Assembly (NCBI GenBank): GCA_003134785.1
Contig: PLCN01000015.1
Span: forward strand, 1-64,000
Direction: 5' to 3'
Length of the DNA: 64,000 nt
DNA from: Spartobacteria bacterium
GTDB lineage: Bacteria > Verrucomicrobiota > Verrucomicrobiia > Chthoniobacterales > UBA10450
In this document: piece after piece, positions 1-6,774 of the stretch
Numbering within the stretch: position 1 is the stretch's first letter
How the letters are laid out: the number at the start of each line of letters is the position of its first letter
Position numbers and translations under genes: made by a program
The notes under the pieces: model-generated
Databases searched by the model: none
Told to the model about the DNA's origin: nothing
What the model saw: only the letters and a program-made list of their open reading frames with translations

Positions 1-99
1 CCAGCAATTGGGGTCAGGCCACAGTCACTCACGCCATCTATAGAGTAACGTTCTTGCTGAGTAAACAAAAATCTTAACTCTTAGGCTTTAGGTGCGGTT
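1..99. other. Left-edge non-coding stretch
   Basis: No gene is visible. The first bases contain the string TTGGGGTCAGGCCACAGT, which resembles short repeat sequences often seen beside tyrosine transposases in related genomes. The match is from memory and the piece is cut by the window edge, so it is only a hint that more mobile DNA lies to the left. Confidence 0.3.
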
Positions 100-876
100 C
101 TATCTTTTCGGCGGCAGGTTCGGCAATATCTTGACTAGGGAGTCTTCGCTGCCGGACGTGGTAAGATTGTCGTTCGACAGCGTTACCTTCGAGTCCTGCG
201 GTTTCACTCGCACAATCCAAAAATATCTCTCGATAATGTTGAACAGAGTGCGGCTCGAAGTCGCCATTAAGGCGTAATCTTGTTCATCTGAAACAGTCAC
301 TTGAAACCGGCCATCGGCGTCAGTCTTGACGCTCGCAATTGGCGTCGGAAGATTATCGAAATATGGCGCGCCAGCGCGAGAAAGTTTTTGCCGCAATAAC
401 ATTTGTGTTACGCGTTCTTTAACCTGTGACACACGCTCCCAAGCTGCATTAAATCTCAACGCGACCTCGTGGCCATCTGCCGGAGAATGCTGATAGCGCC
501 CCACCCACTCCGCGTAAGCTAGCCCGCGCATTTTTTCATCGTACCCGTGCGGACCGGCGACCGCCCGCTCCGCCGCTTGTAAGTCTTCCCGTGCTTTTGC
601 TAAAGCTGTATCGGCTTTTGACCTCTCAGAATCGGGAGCAAGGTCAATATCGCGGATGTGCCGTTCAATATCCGCCTGCGCGAAAAGCCTGACTTCGACT
701 AGAGCGAGTTTTATCGCAGGCCCGGCAGCAGTAACGATGAAGACCTGTCCATCAATGGTCTTGCCGTTCGCATTCGTGAATGCGTAGAGCAGAGCGACCG
801 ATGAGATCAATACCTTTATGAACTTGCGGGATGCCTCGCCTTTAGTAGTAGCTTGCGGAGTAGGTGTGTTTGGCAT
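100..876 (-). CDS. Membrane-anchored hypothetical protein with a C-terminal beta domain
   Basis: This encodes 258 residues that I do not recognise as a named family. Residues about 20-38 (FIKVLISSVALLYAFTNA) form one hydrophobic segment that could be a signal anchor. A charged, probably helical and coiled-coil middle (about 60-160) follows. The C-terminal part contains KTDADGRFQV followed by alternating strands, a pattern typical of carboxypeptidase-regulatory-like beta domains. It lies 36 bp downstream of the 103-aa gene on the same strand, so it may be the last gene of the transposase-led operon. A periplasmic or surface role is inferred from the anchor only. Confidence 0.6.
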   Translation of the reverse strand: MPNTPTPQATTKGEASRKFIKVLISSVALLYAFTNANGKTIDGQVFIVTAAGPAIKLALVEVRLFAQADIERHIRDIDLAPDSERSKADTALAKAREDLQAAERAVAGPHGYDEKMRGLAYAEWVGRYQHSPADGHEVALRFNAAWERVSQVKERVTQMLLRQKLSRAGAPYFDNLPTPIASVKTDADGRFQVTVSDEQDYALMATSSRTLFNIIERYFWIVRVKPQDSKVTLSNDNLTTSGSEDSLVKILPNLPPKR

Positions 877-912
877 AAGGACTAAAGTTAGTTATGAAAC
901 GTTTTGGGCTAG

Positions 913-1224
913 CTATTCGAAATCTGTTATACCGCCTTTTCTCTTCAGCTCATCGAGATGAGCTTGCAGCATCGCAGCTAACGCTGGGTTCTTATCCTCA
1001 ATCGAAACAAGCTCATCCTCAAGTGCGAGGACGCGCTGTTGTGAGAACCAATCAGGGAAAGATATACCCTCAATTGTCTCCACGTGAGCTGCATGAGCAA
1101 CTAGCTCTATACTTCTTAGAAGCACGTCCCTCTCAGCGTTGGCGATCAAGAGCGAAAGACTAATGCTGGCAAATGTGTCCTTAAAATCGTCGCTCATTTC
1201 ATTTTCCGATTCGGATTTTGTCAT
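913..1224 (-). CDS. Small hypothetical protein coupled to the IS1-like transposase
   Basis: This encodes a 103-residue acidic, mostly helical protein with no recognised domain. Its ATG (1224-1222) overlaps the transposase TGA (1223-1221) as ATGA, so it is almost certainly translated by re-initiation from the transposase message. The overlap supports a real gene and a start at this ATG. There is no cysteine cluster, signal peptide or membrane segment. It could be a transposition accessory factor or cargo; the sequence does not decide. Confidence 0.6.
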   Translation of the reverse strand: MTKSESENEMSDDFKDTFASISLSLLIANAERDVLLRSIELVAHAAHVETIEGISFPDWFSQQRVLALEDELVSIEDKNPALAAMLQAHLDELKRKGGITDFE

Positions 1225-2123
1225 TCCAGTTCGGCGAACGCCATCTCAAACTTCGCGTCCTCTTTCCGGCGCATGTATTCCGCCGTCATTTCCACGACAT
1301 CTTCCAAGCCCCACGGCCTAATCTCTACGCCAGCGGCCACGGCTGGCGTCGTGCCGAGCGTCGAATGCTTCCGAACGAAGTTGTAAACGCCGATGAACAG
1401 CGCGACCGCGCTCTTGTGCGTCTCTAGGTCTTTGCTATAGCCCAGCCCTTTGCGCTGGAACCGTTTTAGCTCCTGCCGGACTGTCAGGAACACGCGCTCG
1501 ACGTGACTCGTCGTGAGCATCTCCAAATCCGGCGAGCCGACGACCGCCTTACGCTCTGCCGTTACCAGTTTACGCACGCCTTGATTGCGACCGAAAGACG
1601 CCAGCGTGCCGTCGTTCATTATCGCTTCTCCGAATATCTTCGTTTCCGTGCCGTAGCTGTAGCCCGTGTAGCCGAAGTGAGTTCGGATGTGTCCGGCGTA
1701 GGCAGGCAGTTGATCGGTTGCGATCTGCACCGGCCCTTTAACGCGCTTCCGCACGTCGCCGACGAAAGCGTAGCCGGTTGACCAGTCCCGCTTGCCGACG
1801 CGATGCGACAGAACCAATTTCGTGTCCGCGTCGATTGCCGCCCAAAGCCAAAAGTCGCCCCGGCCCTTTTCCGGCTGCATCATCCGACCGGAGTGACAGC
1901 CGACGTATTGCCATTGCTCGTCCATTTCGATTCGCAGGCAAGGCAGGTCGCGCAGTTCCTTGTCCATGTAGTCGGCGAACGCTTCGCCCGTCTCGCGGAT
2001 TACCCGCGTGATCGCATGCGTGCCGGTCTTGAACATCCGCGCGACGGCTTCAATCGGTGCTCCTTCGCAGAGCGCCGCCAGCACGAAACCTTGCTTTTCT
2101 TTGGAGAGTCTTTTGTTTGCCAT
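1221..2123 (-). CDS. IS1-family DDE transposase
   Basis: This encodes 300 residues. I chose the ATG at 2123 because the IS1 similarity begins there; upstream in-frame codons run into an AT-rich, promoter-like region. Residues 1-50 look like a helix-turn-helix. The catalytic region shows DEQWQYV (68-74), AIDADT (D98), ATDQ (D137) and HVERVFLTVR (E209), matching the IS1-type D, D, E core. The C-terminus ends MRRKEDAKFEMAFAELE. The protein is one uninterrupted frame, unlike classic IS1, which uses a frameshift. No terminal inverted repeats were found immediately around it, so its element is either larger than one gene or decayed. Confidence 0.9.
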   Translation of the reverse strand: MANKRLSKEKQGFVLAALCEGAPIEAVARMFKTGTHAITRVIRETGEAFADYMDKELRDLPCLRIEMDEQWQYVGCHSGRMMQPEKGRGDFWLWAAIDADTKLVLSHRVGKRDWSTGYAFVGDVRKRVKGPVQIATDQLPAYAGHIRTHFGYTGYSYGTETKIFGEAIMNDGTLASFGRNQGVRKLVTAERKAVVGSPDLEMLTTSHVERVFLTVRQELKRFQRKGLGYSKDLETHKSAVALFIGVYNFVRKHSTLGTTPAVAAGVEIRPWGLEDVVEMTAEYMRRKEDAKFEMAFAELE

Positions 2124-2146
2124 AATTTTCTCTTTACTGATTGAGA

Positions 2147-2158
2147 CTATACGTATAG
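2147..2158. promoter_or_regulatory. Palindrome between divergent genes, candidate operator
   Basis: CTATACGTATAG is a perfect 12-bp palindrome in an AT-rich gap between the transposase start (2123) and the divergent 56-aa gene (2197). The position suits an operator or an overlapping pair of promoters. Binding by the neighbouring ribbon-helix-helix-like protein is inference. Confidence 0.4.
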
Positions 2159-2196
2159 AATCAAGAAAGTAAAGAAGAAAATATAAGTATTTTATC

Positions 2197-2367
2197 ATGA
2201 AGAAACTCACCAAATGGGGCGGCAAACGCGAGGGCTCGGGCCGGAAATCCGAGGGGAAAGCGATGTTCACCGTCACGCTTAACGCGAAGAACGTCGCGCG
2301 CGCGAAGAAAAAAGAATCGAACTTTTCCGGCCTGCTCGACCGGCTACTTGCGGGGTGGCTTCGCTGA
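2197..2367 (+). CDS. 56-aa basic protein, ribbon-helix-helix-like
   Basis: The frame runs from ATG 2197 to TGA 2365-2367 and encodes 56 residues. It opens MKKLTKWGGKREGSGRK, resembling the GGKREGAGRK-type leader of many small plasmid and phage DNA-binding proteins. A short strand (MFTVTL) followed by two helices comes next, the layout of a ribbon-helix-helix fold. It is transcribed divergently from the transposase across an AT-rich gap with a palindrome. A repressor or antitoxin role is possible but not shown. No clear ribosome binding site is present. Confidence 0.55.
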   Translation: MKKLTKWGGKREGSGRKSEGKAMFTVTLNAKNVARAKKKESNFSGLLDRLLAGWLR

Positions 2368-2511
2368 CTCCGATTCGGCCCGCTTCTTGGCTGCTCTGAA
2401 CTTCCGCTTGAGCTTGTCGGAGCGAAAGAGTTCCTCGCCATTGACCGGCTCGGATTCAGTGATCCGTTCAACGTTGCGCAACGCTTCTTGGCTCTCGTCG
2501 AGTTTTCTCAC
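2344..2511 (-). CDS. Possible 55-aa charged protein
   Basis: A GTG start (2511) opens a 55-codon frame ending at TAG 2344-2346. The product is very rich in K, R and E. It overlaps the 3' end of the convergent 56-aa gene by 24 bp. There is no recognisable domain or clear ribosome binding site, so it may be a chance frame. It lies between the transposase promoter region and the Ntn hydrolase gene, where no other gene is visible. Confidence 0.3.
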   Translation of the reverse strand: MRKLDESQEALRNVERITESEPVNGEELFRSDKLKRKFRAAKKRAESESAKPPRK

Positions 2512-2553
2512 GGTGGCAGTATAACACGTTCGCTATACAAAAATATAGTTTAG

Positions 2554-3369
2554 TCAGACAATTGGAATGACCGGAACGCCGGTGAACGGTTTCAGTAAGC
2601 CGTCAATTAGCTTTTTCGCTGAATCAGGGACTGGAGGCTTACCTTTGATCTCCCAAATCGCCCGAATATCATCGCACTCGTCCGAGGTCATTTGTCTGCA
2701 CGCTCCTGCCGCGTCCATGACGGTCAAAAAGGTTTTTTTGCCGACGCCTGCCGCCGCTTCGCCCCTGAATTTCGCTTCAAGCAGCCGATAGACGATGTGA
2801 TTGACCGGATGCAGGGAATCTATCGCTCCCATGAGTGCAGCCTGCGCCAGCGTTGCTCCAACTCCGATGGCGTGGAATCCGAGCGGGTCGTGATAGTCAA
2901 TCTTCCCTGGGTCGCTCACCGAAAATATCCGCGACGCATTTCCGATCAGTAAATCGGTATCTAGTCTGACGTTGCCGATCTGGTAGAGCATCTTGCCGAA
3001 TATCTCACGTCCGAACGCCTTTTTGCCGGTCTTCTGAAACTGCTCCCGCGTGATTCCTAGCGGGCTCAATAGCTCGTCGTTTATCTTCTGCTCTAGCTCC
3101 GCTTTGAACGCCATTTCGAACGCGGATTCCATGACGGCAAACGTCTCCGTTTGACCGGCAGTGCTGTTAATAACGCGTTGTATGATTCTGTAGGCGTGCG
3201 TCGTGTCGCCAGCGAACATCACAGCCCAGCGGATTTTCGTCCCGATGAAGCTGGTTTTTACCAAGGTCGGTTCTGCCGACATGCTTGAATTGCTCAGCAT
3301 GTGGTCGGAAACTGTGATGTAGCTCTTGCCGCCGCTGCTCCTAGCGACTGCCGCGATGCATAACGTCAT
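2554..3369 (-). CDS. Orphan proteasome-type Ntn hydrolase
   Basis: This encodes 271 residues from ATG 3369. The open frame continues upstream to 3978, but that part crosses a transposon end and looks non-coding. The N-terminus MTLCIAAV resembles proteasome beta and HslV-like proteins, where Met removal exposes a catalytic Thr. Counting that Thr as 1, Asp21 (VSDHML) and Lys37 (LVKTSFIG) follow at the same 16-residue spacing as Asp17 and Lys33 of proteasome subunits. A strand and glycine pattern (AVMFAGDTTHAYRI) comes after them. No ATPase partner or second subunit is nearby. The fold call is from motif spacing, and the substrate is unknown. Confidence 0.6.
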   Translation of the reverse strand: MTLCIAAVARSSGGKSYITVSDHMLSNSSMSAEPTLVKTSFIGTKIRWAVMFAGDTTHAYRIIQRVINSTAGQTETFAVMESAFEMAFKAELEQKINDELLSPLGITREQFQKTGKKAFGREIFGKMLYQIGNVRLDTDLLIGNASRIFSVSDPGKIDYHDPLGFHAIGVGATLAQAALMGAIDSLHPVNHIVYRLLEAKFRGEAAAGVGKKTFLTVMDAAGACRQMTSDECDDIRAIWEIKGKPPVPDSAKKLIDGLLKPFTGVPVIPIV

Positions 3370-3479
3370 ATTATGCCCGTAATACTCTGCCCTTGGCCGT
3401 ATCGGGGGAAGCGGAAAGATTCGAAACGGGTCTCGCGGAAGATACCGCCCCGGTTCGCGGGCCGCGTGAAAGGCCGTTC

Positions 3480-3498
3480 GGTTATAATCTCTATAACC
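3480..3498. repeat. Small inverted repeat upstream of the Ntn hydrolase
   Basis: GGTTATA and TATAACC are separated by five bases. The pair lies about 110 bp upstream of the Ntn hydrolase start and next to the transposon junction. It may be a promoter or operator, or part of an older element end. Confidence 0.3.
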
Positions 3499-3514
3499 AA
3501 TCGGCGGCAACACC

Positions 3515-3522
3515 AGTCTATT
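3515..3522. repeat. Target site duplication, left copy
   Basis: AGTCTATT lies immediately outside the left terminal inverted repeat. The identical octamer follows the right repeat at 4801-4808. An 8-bp duplication fits IS1-type insertion. Confidence 0.85.
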
Positions 3523-3547
3523 GGTGTTGGGGTGCCTATCGTTATGG
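3523..3547. repeat. Left terminal inverted repeat
   Basis: This 25-bp sequence is perfectly complementary to 4776-4800 and begins GGTGTTGGGG at the outer end. Confidence 0.85.
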
Positions 3548-3593
3548 TTTTTAAGGCTAGACTCTGATCCCTGGGTCGAATCACCATTCGCGC

Positions 3594-3908
3594 ATGCCCG
3601 AAAACGTCGAATCAGAGCCAGAACCGTTTTGGGTAAAATCCAAGTGGACAGTCCAGCAATTAGACGGTCAAACCATTGAGTTCCAACTGCGATTTCCAAA
3701 CGGCGATACCGCGTCTGGCAACGAGCCGATCTATGCGCGTGCGCGCCCACTGGTTGATGACCGGGTCCATCTGGAGTTCGTAATAGAAGAGCAAGTGCAT
3801 GAGTGGAAGAAGCGCCTGATCGTGTTTCAACTCGCACAGAAAGCTGCCGACTGTATCGTTCTGCATCCTGACCAGAGCATTGCCCACTTTCAGCTTGTGA
3901 TGCCGTAA
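3594..3908 (+). CDS. Hypothetical 104-aa passenger protein
   Basis: This encodes 104 residues with alternating hydrophobic strands (VQQLDGQTIEFQLRF, VHLEFVIEE, KRLIVFQLAQ), suggesting a small mostly-beta protein. It starts about 47 bp inside the left end of the element. No signal peptide, membrane segment or known motif is seen. An antisense frame is also open here, but the composition of this strand is more protein-like. The function is unknown. Confidence 0.5.
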   Translation: MPENVESEPEPFWVKSKWTVQQLDGQTIEFQLRFPNGDTASGNEPIYARARPLVDDRVHLEFVIEEQVHEWKKRLIVFQLAQKAADCIVLHPDQSIAHFQLVMP

Positions 3909-3974
3909 CCTCGCGCACGTACCAAGAACCGTAGCCGTCCGCAAGGTTGCCGCTGGCGATTATCTTGTCCTCGC

Positions 3975-4034
3975 TCACGCCTCAAGTTCGGCAAAGGCTG
4001 CTTCAAACTGAGCATCTTCTTTCCGCCTCATGTT
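3975..4034 (-). pseudogene. C-terminal remnant of an IS1-like transposase
   Basis: The minus strand encodes MRRKEDAQFEAAFAELEA and a stop, nearly identical to the tail of the transposase at 1221-2123 (MRRKEDAKFEMAFAELE). Similarity stops abruptly upstream, so only about 19 codons remain. The TGA overlaps a GTG as GTGA, which opens another frame (VSEDKIIASGNLADGYG). This repeats the arrangement in which the intact transposase is coupled to a downstream gene. Confidence 0.65.
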
Positions 4035-4061
4035 AAAGGCAAGCTTGTCACCATCGGCAAT

Positions 4062-4772
4062 ATGGTGGAGGCGCTTGAGGAGGGCGCGGTTATACGCGAC
4101 GCGGAAACGAAGGTAGCGGGTCTGGAAGCGGAGCTTGGCAATCTTAAGATCGAGACGAAAGCGCTTAAGACCGAGGTGGAGGGGTTTCGCGCAGAACGGA
4201 AAAAACAGAAAGAGAAGGAGCGGGAGATACCGCCAGTTCAATTCAAGATTCTCAAGCTGCTGCCAAGCGAACACGCCGGCGGCCTGAAAATGGACGAGAT
4301 TGCCACCGCTATAAAAATCCCGTTGGACGAAGCCGAGCTTTACGTTGGGGCATTGGAGGACGCTAGACTCGTTGGAAGCCGATACAACACTTTGGCGGTC
4401 ATAATATGGTATCGTACCAAGACCGGGAACCAGCTCGTCGTGGCTAAACGCTGGGCTGGCGAAGAAGAAGAGCGAAAAGCATACAAACACGCTGACCTTC
4501 CGCAGATACAGCACGAGGCGTTGTTGATCATTGCGGCGGAACCGCAAGGGGGTGCCATATTTGAACACGAAGGCGTCTATGTGCACGAAATCACCAACAA
4601 GCTTGGCGAGAGCCTTGCCAAGACTCGCTACAATCTGCGGCAACTTCAGAAGGCAGGCATGGCGACCGATGGCAGCGAAGATTTCATTGCCGCCGACTAT
4701 AGCGGCCTTGGGCCTACGTGGACGCTTCTCGACAAGGGCGAGGAATATCTCGGGGAGCGAGACCTTCTCTAA
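4062..4772 (+). CDS. Coiled-coil protein with two winged-helix-like domains (passenger)
   Basis: This encodes 236 residues. Residues about 10-56 form a charged coiled coil (ETKVAGLEAELGNLKIETKA). Residues 58-110 (FKILKLLPSEHAGGLKMDEIATAIKI) and 149-230 (HEALLIIAAEPQGGA, then VYVHEITNKLGESL) read as two winged helix-turn-helix units. The frame stays open upstream of the chosen ATG (KGKLVTIGN precedes it), so the gene may be the surviving 3' part of a longer one. The stop sits three bases before the right terminal repeat. A DNA-binding regulatory role is inferred from the fold only. Confidence 0.55.
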   Translation: MVEALEEGAVIRDAETKVAGLEAELGNLKIETKALKTEVEGFRAERKKQKEKEREIPPVQFKILKLLPSEHAGGLKMDEIATAIKIPLDEAELYVGALEDARLVGSRYNTLAVIIWYRTKTGNQLVVAKRWAGEEEERKAYKHADLPQIQHEALLIIAAEPQGGAIFEHEGVYVHEITNKLGESLAKTRYNLRQLQKAGMATDGSEDFIAADYSGLGPTWTLLDKGEEYLGERDLL

Positions 4773-4775
4773 TTT

Positions 4776-4800
4776 CCATAACGATAGGCACCCCAACACC
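4776..4800. repeat. Right terminal inverted repeat
   Basis: This is the perfect 25-bp inverse of 3523-3547. The 8-bp AGTCTATT duplication follows at 4801-4808. Confidence 0.85.
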
Positions 4801-4808
4801 AGTCTATT
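4801..4808. repeat. Target site duplication, right copy
   Basis: AGTCTATT is identical to 3515-3522 and directly abuts the right terminal repeat. Confidence 0.85.
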
Positions 4809-5070
4809 TTATATGACATATATTGTATGATGTTATTGTTTGGTAGTCCCAGCATGCTGATTCCCGTTCCCCTTGCGATTGACCTAGATCTTTCAAACGC
4901 AATCGACCTTGGGCGATCACTCCCAGTCGTCAGGTATCCATCGATTGCGCTGAGTTCATTAAGCCGGAACAGATTCCGCGGGTGAAGCGGCTTCGGCGAG
5001 CGCACCGGTGAACGTCGCGCGTCGCAAACACACCGAAATCTTCGAGAGAGGCTTCTCCCGATCTGAATTA
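4809..5070. other. Gene-free stretch right of the element
   Basis: The region starts AT-rich (TTATATGACATATATTG) and then returns to average composition. No frame here looks protein-like on either strand, and no structured repeat was noticed. Confidence 0.5.
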
Positions 5071-5256
5071 CTAGGTTGGGAGCGCTTTGGGCCGTCGCAG
5101 GTCCAGGGCGAAGTTGGTGTCCCACTTTTTCAGCACGGCGGCGTGCGAAGCGGCTAGCCGTTCTATCAGTGACGGCGGAATCGACGGGTCTGCGGGAATT
5201 AGATGATCGTCGGAACTACGCACGGTCGAAGGAATCCCCAGTTTTTGGGTGTTCAT
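5071..5256 (-). CDS. Hypothetical 61-aa protein
   Basis: This encodes 61 residues, with PSIPPSLIERLAASHAAVLKKWDTNF as a plausible amphipathic helix. There is no signal, membrane segment or known motif. It lies 10 bp downstream of a possible tiny membrane ORF on the same strand. The composition is protein-like but the frame is short, so it could be accidental. Confidence 0.4.
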   Translation of the reverse strand: MNTQKLGIPSTVRSSDDHLIPADPSIPPSLIERLAASHAAVLKKWDTNFALDLRRPKALPT

Positions 5257-5265
5257 GCTTATCTG

Positions 5266-5337
5266 TTAAAGCATCAAACGTGCGGCGATGTCGGCGATTA
5301 CTACGTAGCTCGCTGTTGCGAGCGCCCCGATTATCAC
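5266..5337 (-). CDS. Possible tiny membrane peptide
   Basis: From GTG 5337, a 23-codon frame encodes VIIGALATASYVVIADIAA, a good transmembrane helix, and ends at TAA 5266-5268. The same frame stays open upstream to about 5410 (GRWCKGFGSRHGRWCGFS precedes it) but has no standard start there. It could be a small holin-like protein or the remnant of a larger one. Confidence 0.25.
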   Translation of the reverse strand: MIIGALATASYVVIADIAARLML

Positions 5338-5523
5338 ACTGAACCCGCACCAACGCCCGTGGCGTGACCCAAAGCCCTTACACCATCGACCAACCAGAAT
5401 TATCCAATCACTATTATGTCAATGGCACGACCTTAAACGGCTTATGAGTTTTCTTATGTCTTTCGAGTGGTTGCGATTTTCGGATAATCCAAGCAAATTC
5501 GGCTGCGAATTCGCCGGGATAAT

Positions 5524-6774
5524 CTATTCGTCGGCTGCACTGGCGGGTTGAGAAGGCGTGAACCGGGCCAGGCCGAATTCCTTATGGGTAAGCTGAGCCG
5601 CGCGATCGGCGTCCTGGCCGTCAATGACGACGGCGATTTTGATTTCGGAGGTGGAAATCAGTTGGATGTTGATTCCGCTCTTGCCCAGGCAATCGAATAA
5701 CCGCGCGGCCACGCCGGAGTGCGAGCGCATCCCGATCCCGACCACGCTCAGTTTGGCGACGCCGCTCTTGGTGATCAGACCCGCGGCCTGAACTTCTTTG
5801 ACCACGGGTTCGAGTAACTTTATTGCGGAGTCGAGGTCGTTCTCGTGAATCGTGAAGGAGATGTCGGTTGTTCCATGCTTGGAAACGCTTTGGACAATCA
5901 TGTCGACCACGATGTTGCCGCTCGCGATCACGGAAAAAATCCGGCCGGCGATTCCCGCTTCGTCGCGGACGTCATCGACCGTGACCTTGGCCTGGTTGCG
6001 ATCGACGCTGATGCCGCGAATGACCACGTCTTCCATGTTCGCGGTTTCCTCTTTCGCAATCGTCCCGATGTCGCTCTTGAGACTCGAGCGCACTTCGAAT
6101 TCCACACCGAATTTCTTGGCGAACTCGACGGCGCGAGATTGCATGACCTTTGAACCAGCGCCGGCCATTTCGAGCAGCTCGTCGTAGGCGACCTCATCGA
6201 TCTTCTTTGCGTCGGACACGATGCGCGGATCGCAAGTGAAGACGCCATCGACATCGGTAAAAATCTGACAGGCATCGGCATTCAACGCGCCGGCCAGCGC
6301 GATCGCGGTCAAATCCGTGCCGCCGCGTCCGAGCGTGGTCGTGTCGCCGTCGGCGTTCTGGCCCTGAAAGCCGGCCACGACCACGATGTAATCATCAGCC
6401 AGCAATTCGTGGATTTGTTTCGGAGAAATATTTGCGATTCTTGCCCGGGTATGAGCGCGGTCCGTGAGAATGCCGGCTTCCGCGCCGGTCAACGAAATGG
6501 CTTTTCCGCCGAGGGCATTGATCGCCATGGCGGTCAGCGCCACGGCGGCGAGTTCGCCGGTGGCGAGCAAGGCGTCGAGCTCGCGCTCGGTTGGCTGGGG
6601 CGAAGTCTCGCGCGCGAGCTTGATCAGGTTGTCGGTCACGCCTGCCATCGCGGAAATAACACCGACGACTTTGCAGCCTTCCTGCTGCGTCGCGAGGAGC
6701 CGCCCCGCGACATTACGGATGCGCTCCGGCGTTCCAACCGAAGTGCCGCCGTACTTTTGAACGATCAGGCGCAT
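5524..6774 (-). CDS. lysC: Aspartate kinase
   Basis: Aspartate kinase phosphorylates L-aspartate, the first step toward lysine, threonine, methionine and diaminopimelate. The 416 residues open MRLIVQKYGGTSVG, the family signature. They continue with VVGVISAMAGVTDNL, a GRGGTDLTA segment and the TDVDGV/DPRIV motif of the catalytic domain (about 1-245). Two ACT domains follow (about 265-405; DISFTI, then GIGMRSHSGVAARLF and IQLISTSEIKIAVVI), which normally sense lysine or threonine. The length is typical. It lies downstream of thrC on the same strand, but a 0.4-kb palindromic region separates them. Confidence 0.97.
   Translation of the reverse strand: MRLIVQKYGGTSVGTPERIRNVAGRLLATQQEGCKVVGVISAMAGVTDNLIKLARETSPQPTERELDALLATGELAAVALTAMAINALGGKAISLTGAEAGILTDRAHTRARIANISPKQIHELLADDYIVVVAGFQGQNADGDTTTLGRGGTDLTAIALAGALNADACQIFTDVDGVFTCDPRIVSDAKKIDEVAYDELLEMAGAGSKVMQSRAVEFAKKFGVEFEVRSSLKSDIGTIAKEETANMEDVVIRGISVDRNQAKVTVDDVRDEAGIAGRIFSVIASGNIVVDMIVQSVSKHGTTDISFTIHENDLDSAIKLLEPVVKEVQAAGLITKSGVAKLSVVGIGMRSHSGVAARLFDCLGKSGINIQLISTSEIKIAVVIDGQDADRAAQLTHKEFGLARFTPSQPASAADE

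Follow-up and report, generated by a model that had tools for sequence, protein, structure and literature searches.

The window, by which we mean the whole 64,000-nucleotide stretch analysed (G000:C23:1-64000, G000 being the window's own genome), holds a 1.28-kb element that most probably (about 0.8) arose by internal deletion from a passenger-carrying, IS1-family-like transposon of a kind that has the chromosomal dif site as its target and builds stacks in which the newest member lies next to dif. This cassette spans positions 3523-4800 (1278 bp), and the order in the window is neighbouring element, AGTCTATT, cassette, AGTCTATT, dif, aspartokinase gene, with the following features:

1224-2129, minus strand: IS1-family-like transposase of ~301 aa, attributed to the neighbouring element from its position
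3480-3514, minus strand: right end of the neighbouring element of the same kind, reading GGTGTTGCCGCCGATTGGTTATAGAGATTATAACC inward (sequence)
3515-3522: left copy of the 8-bp target duplication, AGTCTATT, the spacer between cassette and neighbouring element (sequence)
3523-3547, plus strand: left 25-bp terminal inverted repeat, GGTGTTGGGGTGCCTATCGTTATGG (repeat search, shuffle test, end alignment)
3594-3908, plus strand: passenger ORF of 104 aa (ORF list)
3975-4033, minus strand: last 19 codons of an IS1-family-like transposase gene, its sole remnant (DNA homology)
4030-4036: deletion joint, with the transposase tail on one side and codon 31 of the coiled-coil/winged-helix gene on the other (homology borders)
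4032-4772, plus strand: coiled-coil and winged-helix passenger gene, 5'-truncated (listed as a 236-aa ORF, 4062-4772)
4776-4800, minus strand: right 25-bp terminal inverted repeat (repeat search, shuffle test, end alignment)
4801-4808: right-hand copy of the duplicated 8-bp target, AGTCTATT, directly adjoining dif (sequence)
4809-4836, plus strand: very probable chromosomal dif site, TTATATGACATATATTGTATGATGTTAT (copy number, synteny, skew; XerC arm by analogy)
5524-6774, minus strand: aspartokinase gene on the far side of dif (amino acid kinase and ACT domains)

The two 25-bp ends of the cassette are identical to each other and the identity stops past base 25; the repeat search reports 26 bases (3522-3547) because the base just outside each end pairs too. 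A chance origin of the repeat pair was ruled out, as it was seen in 0 of 100 shuffles. Within positions 1-6000, AGTCTATT is present exactly twice, at 3515-3522 and 4801-4808. Both copies are preceded by CAACACC, and the direct repeat thus measures 15 bp (3508-3522 and 4794-4808) rather than 8 bp because an element of the same kind ends at 3514. The initial annotation had set these exact bounds from perfect 25-bp terminal repeats and an 8-bp duplication, all of which we confirm; it was silent on the adjacency to dif and on the neighbour 8 bp from the cassette.

Regarding the contents, the 104-aa ORF had no match in Pfam or PHROGs within the limits applied and a single weak NCBIfam match, far below the cut-off of that model. 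The winged-helix gene product is 38% identical to a 276-aa relative in G005 (258 aligned columns, E 5.6e-50) and matches HTH_20 slightly below the cut-off. Its structure model (mean pLDDT 58.3) found no PDB match at E 0.001 or better, and the best PDB matches of this predicted fold are ArsR/MarR-type regulators (E ~0.01). The DNA of the transposase tail is 75-82% identical to the same stretch in the transposases of several relatives. This homology spans 3978-4033, while the match to the G005 protein begins at residue 31, corresponding to window position ~4032, so that ~30 N-terminal codons of the winged-helix gene are missing at the joint (~4033). Because the homology borders coincide at ~4033, a single deletion must have taken nearly all of the transposase, the intergenic space and the start of the winged-helix gene. 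Judged from its sequence, the cassette is a deletion remnant of a larger IS1-family-like transposon, the parent of which would have carried, in order, a terminal repeat, the 104-aa gene, the transposase, the divergent coiled-coil/winged-helix gene and the second terminal repeat. The cassette would then either have moved in trans or have lost its transposase after landing. An undeleted plan is seen in an element of G016 (G016a), in which a winged-helix-like gene, a divergent transposase and a third gene lie between nearly the same ends; since its winged-helix-like protein shares only 21% identity with that of the window, G016a represents the plan and not the parent of the cassette. The description in the initial annotation of an IS1-like element without a transposase, holding a 104-aa gene, a coiled-coil/winged-helix gene and a 19-codon transposase tail, is supported, and passenger-carrying relatives with longer transposase genes do exist. 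Its "two passenger genes" is half right and fails as stated, because the winged-helix gene was cut by the deletion that removed the transposase.

The neighbouring element resembles the IS1 family in its transposase, which scores above the cut-off for PF03400 (DDE_Tnp_IS1; 45.3 bits, cut-off 24.1) and below it for the NCBI equivalog of the IS1 transposase, NF033558 (64.7 bits, cut-off 100). Because of the latter score we use the label "IS1-family-like", denoting a distant group. The structure model of this protein (mean pLDDT 42.1) was too low for use, and its profile yielded no match to PDB sequences at E 0.01. The left end of the neighbouring element was found neither in the window nor at the edge of contig C6, on which nadK sits. 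The dif-side edge of C6 shows no end matching the window stack, so that closing the stack via C6 failed, and the third AGTCTATT that the stack model predicts beyond the neighbour, off the contig, was not found at the C6 edge. Two further frames lie in this region: a 56-aa ORF divergent from the transposase (2197-2367, plus strand) with a weak CcdA-antitoxin-like match below the cut-off, and a 271-aa frame in the neighbouring element (2554-3369, minus strand) whose one match, to an HslV-peptidase-like phage family, is weak (E 0.08).

In mobile insertion cassettes (MICs) and transporter IS, terminal repeats enclose non-transposase genes, and MICs lack a transposase. The cassette could accordingly be a purpose-built MIC, in which two intact passengers replaced the transposase and which the neighbouring IS1-family enzyme regularly mobilises in trans. 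Its perfect repeats and duplication do point to an insertion in the recent past, a suitable enzyme is encoded 1.4 kb away, and the 25-bp end also occurs in G005. We nevertheless consider such an origin unlikely: there is one copy of the cassette in the genome, the end presumed to belong to the enzyme's own element (the right end of the neighbouring element) matches the cassette end at just 11 of 25 positions, and, unlike a MIC, the cassette is a deletion remnant whose passenger lacks its start at the very joint that removed the transposase. At up to three mismatches the 25-bp repeat has no third copy in G000. Among the 58 genomes searched, the own one included, it recurs exactly at one end in G005, and with two and three mismatches at the two ends of the 2488-bp element in G016, so that a complete lack of other copies, which the initial annotation had named as grounds against its reading, was not observed. 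A 14-base piece of the repeat matches at least 120 viral-contig stretches, the piece being too short to inform.

The main result concerns TTATATGACATATATTGTATGATGTTAT, which lies beyond the bounds of the cassette and which its right target duplication abuts. The motif was found in 36 of 58 relatives, as a single copy in 33 and as two copies in three (G011, G031, G050), and the remaining 22 lack it at up to three mismatches; the reversed-motif control gave 0. In a class sample it occurs in 30 of 284 genomes, comprising 30 of the 64 members of this order and none of the 220 genomes outside; within the order it is spread over many families, and 34 members lack it at up to three mismatches. Where family members are readable on both sides, the motif lies between the NAD kinase gene and the aspartokinase gene, as it does beside the latter in the window. 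In sites free of elements, nadK homology ends 78 (G009), 129 (G027) and 330 bp (G022) before dif. Empty sites bearing a single AGTCTATT, as foreseen by the initial annotation, did not turn up; the empty dif sites carry other octamers. On a 3.76-Mb contig (G180:C2), 22 of 25 samples below the motif show positive GC skew and 11 of 15 samples at or above it negative skew (four positive), which places a clear skew switch within ~100 kb of the motif. The genome encodes XerD (335.4 bits, cut-off 329.6) and a XerC-like recombinase (301.3 bits, below the cut-off of 335.15). The sequence of dif varies between phyla, and likeness to the Escherichia coli site is helpful and not required. Such likeness was dropped as proof, since, when the AT-rich region was shuffled 20000 times, 7246 of the shuffles reached the 14 of 28 identities to E. 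coli dif.

This lack of significant likeness to E. coli dif, together with the GC skew of the G004 and G005 contigs, which gave no clear switch at the motif, would fit a different single-copy intergenic signal that attracts the transposase and is not dif. We regard this as quite improbable, given that the motif is single in 33 of the 36 relatives having it, is confined in the class sample to one order while reaching many of its families, lies near the skew switch in the sole long contig tested, and is flanked by arrays of half-site-bounded units, and that xerD and xerC-like genes are present. TTATATGACATATATTGTATGATGTTAT is therefore very probably the chromosomal dif as far as can be judged from sequence, and its element-facing arm is presumably the XerC arm, an assignment made because of the analogy to ISAjo2 (see below) and because this half is retained in secondary sites.

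The elements stand at a fixed distance from dif. In family f1, 24 dif sites were examined (from 23 G genomes and from L210, which is apparently the same genome as G543; one site with <70 bp upstream); a repeat end lies exactly 8 bp away in 11, on the same side, and at 9 bp in one; the other offsets between 0 and 59 bp hold zero to two ends each. At the other 12 sites neither distance is occupied by a repeat end, and the same is true of all 22 sites from the order's other families. The f1 test covers one site per genome in G011 and G031 and leaves aside their second sites as well as G012, G024 and G025. A composite of repeat end, N8 and dif half-site was present at up to three mismatches in 29 of 83 family genomes (43 places) and at up to two mismatches in 24 genomes (32 places); several of the 11 places with three mismatches are the motif read on the other strand. 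Read backwards, the composite occurred in 0 of 83 genomes. Because some of the composite places are secondary sites with just the half TTATATGACATATA in common, this half seems sufficient as a target. Exact 8-bp duplications surround the cassette, G016a, a second G016 element (G016b) and the elements of G005 and L210, and the occurrence of multiple terminal-repeat types and octamers at dif points to independent insertions. In G002, G004, G011 and G019, the element next to dif yielded no matching-octamer far end in a search that covered loci other than G006, G013, G014 and G020. Targeting of dif is not absolute, since elements with exact 8-bp duplications are inserted elsewhere in G002:C9 (CTTCTTTA) and IMG/VR L128 (AAAAAAAC). 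In L360 (G007) and L339 (G013), two opposed terminal repeats abut to form a palindrome or near-palindrome of ~30 bp that stands 8 bp from dif or a dif-like site; these are perhaps extreme remnants of such elements.

Transposases 71-77% identical to that of the window (alignment A1) lie in elements with exact 8-bp duplications, which include:

G016a: 2488 bp
G016b: 4080 bp
G002:C9: 3190 bp
L128: 2468 bp

The G005 element belongs to this group as well, with ends ~2.0 kb apart; the ends of the L210 element, whose transposase is 73% identical, are ~2.3 kb apart. The relatives with octamers at both ends thus measure 2.0-4.1 kb and have further ORFs aboard. Their passengers are shared between loci and include a family of ~190 aa at five loci (two were run against Pfam, without a match), DUF3800 at three loci and P63C at two (Pfam run on one locus each), and coiled-coil/winged-helix proteins, of which five were aligned, the other four being 21-43% identical to that of the window. 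In a phylum sample of 288 genomes, which holds at least three f1 genomes and in which most rows without a match were not itemised, the transposase was found at E 1e-60 or better in two, G000 itself and G019. A scan of genome contigs returned eight loci, titled Spartobacteria (five), Chthoniobacterales (one) and Verrucomicrobia (two), several of them the same contigs as our G loci; in six of the eight, dif is present and preceded at 8 or 9 bp by a repeat end. Among ten plasmid records with a relative (24-47% identity), five are annotated as IS1 family transposase. Eight transposase genes, or tails of such genes, were read at dif or a half-site: six point toward the site and two away. G019 is omitted from this count, since its transposase could not be linked to the end on the dif side.

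The same 8-bp distance recurs inside the stacks. At ten stack loci, comprising 322 repeat-like ends and 30 half-sites, 11 pairs of end and half-site are spaced by 8 bp, one by 9 bp, and single pairs by 14, 24 and 77 bp. Among the opposed ends at 11 stack loci, nine pairs have gaps of at most 40 bp; five of these (in G000, G016, G002, G004 and G020) are spaced by exactly 8 bp and the others by 0, 20, 33 and 37 bp. The 8-bp spacing of neighbours is as predicted by repeated insertion beside dif. In G000 and G016 the octamer between two elements recurs beyond the dif-side element; in G016, CTCCGACT stands between an older end and G016b and again between G016b and the half-site. In the stacks of G002, G004 and G020 the junction alone is visible, and the dif-side octamer of G004 is unlike its junction octamer. 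As a separate observation, L167 (G004:C40:50000-64000) contains five dif-like half-sites in direct repetition, at 918, 1718, 2575, 3500 and 4528. Each consists of TGACATATA and then an arm resembling CAATYGTSATTTT, and the intervals of 0.8-1.0 kb between them hold ORFs. This array next to dif looks like Xer-type gene modules, and similar half-sites occur in G002, G007, G016 and L210.

Could the elements at dif instead be integrative, using host XerC/XerD in an IMEX-like manner, with the terminal repeats irrelevant? Their location at dif and the dif-like half-sites in which neighbouring stack units end are in line with such a mode, and phage dif-like sites with degenerate XerD arms are mentioned in PMC3025954. 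Against this stand the exact 8-bp duplications outside the GGTGTTG repeats, the IS1-family-like transposases and the fact that dif is not part of the element. On account of the duplications and transposases, Xer integration of these elements was rejected, and we give it next to no credence.

Under the preferred reading of transposition beside dif, elements would insert with one end 8 bp, the length of the target duplication, from the same dif arm, leaving dif intact. A later insertion would reuse the 8 bp beside dif and land between dif and the earlier element, so that the stack would grow with its newest member nearest dif and one copy of the same 8 bp between members. The position in a stack would then reflect the order of arrival. 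A passenger acting as the targeting factor was rejected, as BLAST clusters revealed no single passenger family common to all dif-adjacent elements. Because passenger content varies among these elements, the transposase is the likelier selector; it may pick the site alone, through contact with dif-bound XerC or by reading the half-site. In a broader interpretation, which we hold tentatively and at slightly below even odds, dif would be the docking point of an integron-like gene-acquisition island built by DDE transposition, with exchangeable passengers, interleaved half-site units, a stack order equal to the order of arrival, a transposase that recognises XerC on the half-site, and dif hunting that is independent of IS1202.

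Targeting of dif is already known from the ISAjo2 group of the IS1202 family, the Acinetobacter "dif site hunters" (PMC10132070). As far as the text of that paper describes them, these too are DDE elements beside the chromosomal dif, separated from it by the target duplication, on the XerC side and with dif intact, and they also occupy secondary dif-like and pdif sites (PMC10132070). They are described there as 1.5 kb long, with a Tn7-like (TnsB-like) transposase of 441-457 aa, TGT/ACA ends, a 5-bp duplication and an orientation that is always the same; Harmer and colleagues suggested XerC contact for ISAjo2, and the word "tandem" is absent from the main text (PMC10132070). In contrast, the elements described here have a ~300-aa IS1-family-like transposase, GGTGTTG ends and an 8-bp duplication, carry passenger genes, occur in both orientations and stack. 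They thus differ from the ISAjo2 group in transposase size, ends and duplication, and share its fixed spacing from dif or dif-like sites, G002:C9 and L128 excepted.

With the IS1 family, the elements share the DDE_Tnp_IS1 domain, the 8-bp duplication and GGTG..TG ends. Members of this family generate 8-9 bp target duplications, have GGT..TG ends and are typically small (~0.7-1.2 kb) and devoid of passenger genes; ISfinder also lists a large-sized IS1 subgroup (ISMhu11). The duplication and ends found here agree with the family, whereas the size of 2.0-4.1 kb, the passengers and the preferred target do not. Tn5053/Tn402, the "res hunters", insert beside a resolution site, and differ from the present elements by another transposition system and by using serine-resolvase res sites. 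Among open-licence papers we found no report of an IS1-family, passenger-carrying, stacking element at dif. Should the present interpretation be correct, the hunting of dif sites has evolved in a second, unrelated IS family, and in another phylum. Family f1 offers a natural set of insertions made at the same position, to which empty sites can be compared, and makes it testable how a small single-protein transposase finds one chromosomal site and whether XerC is the bait. Moreover, stacks whose members are separated by one octamer could allow a relative dating of the elements that arrived in such a gene island, located at the replication terminus.

Two further elements deserve mention. The dif-adjacent element of G005:C15 (~329480-331480, L168) has two different terminal repeats, one identical to that of the cassette, and is flanked on both sides by the same octamer, CTACTATT, despite its unlike ends, possibly due to an exchange of ends. 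On G000:C20 (L174:4117-8287), a 4171-bp IS1-family-like element with 19 of 20 end bases alike and the duplication TGCGTGGC carries ORFs of 322 aa and 216 aa (NYN domain) and a distant transposase (35-37%, PF03400 over the cut-off) that stops inside the aligned stretch. As this element is inserted in an rtcB-type gene, passenger-carrying elements off dif also exist in G000.
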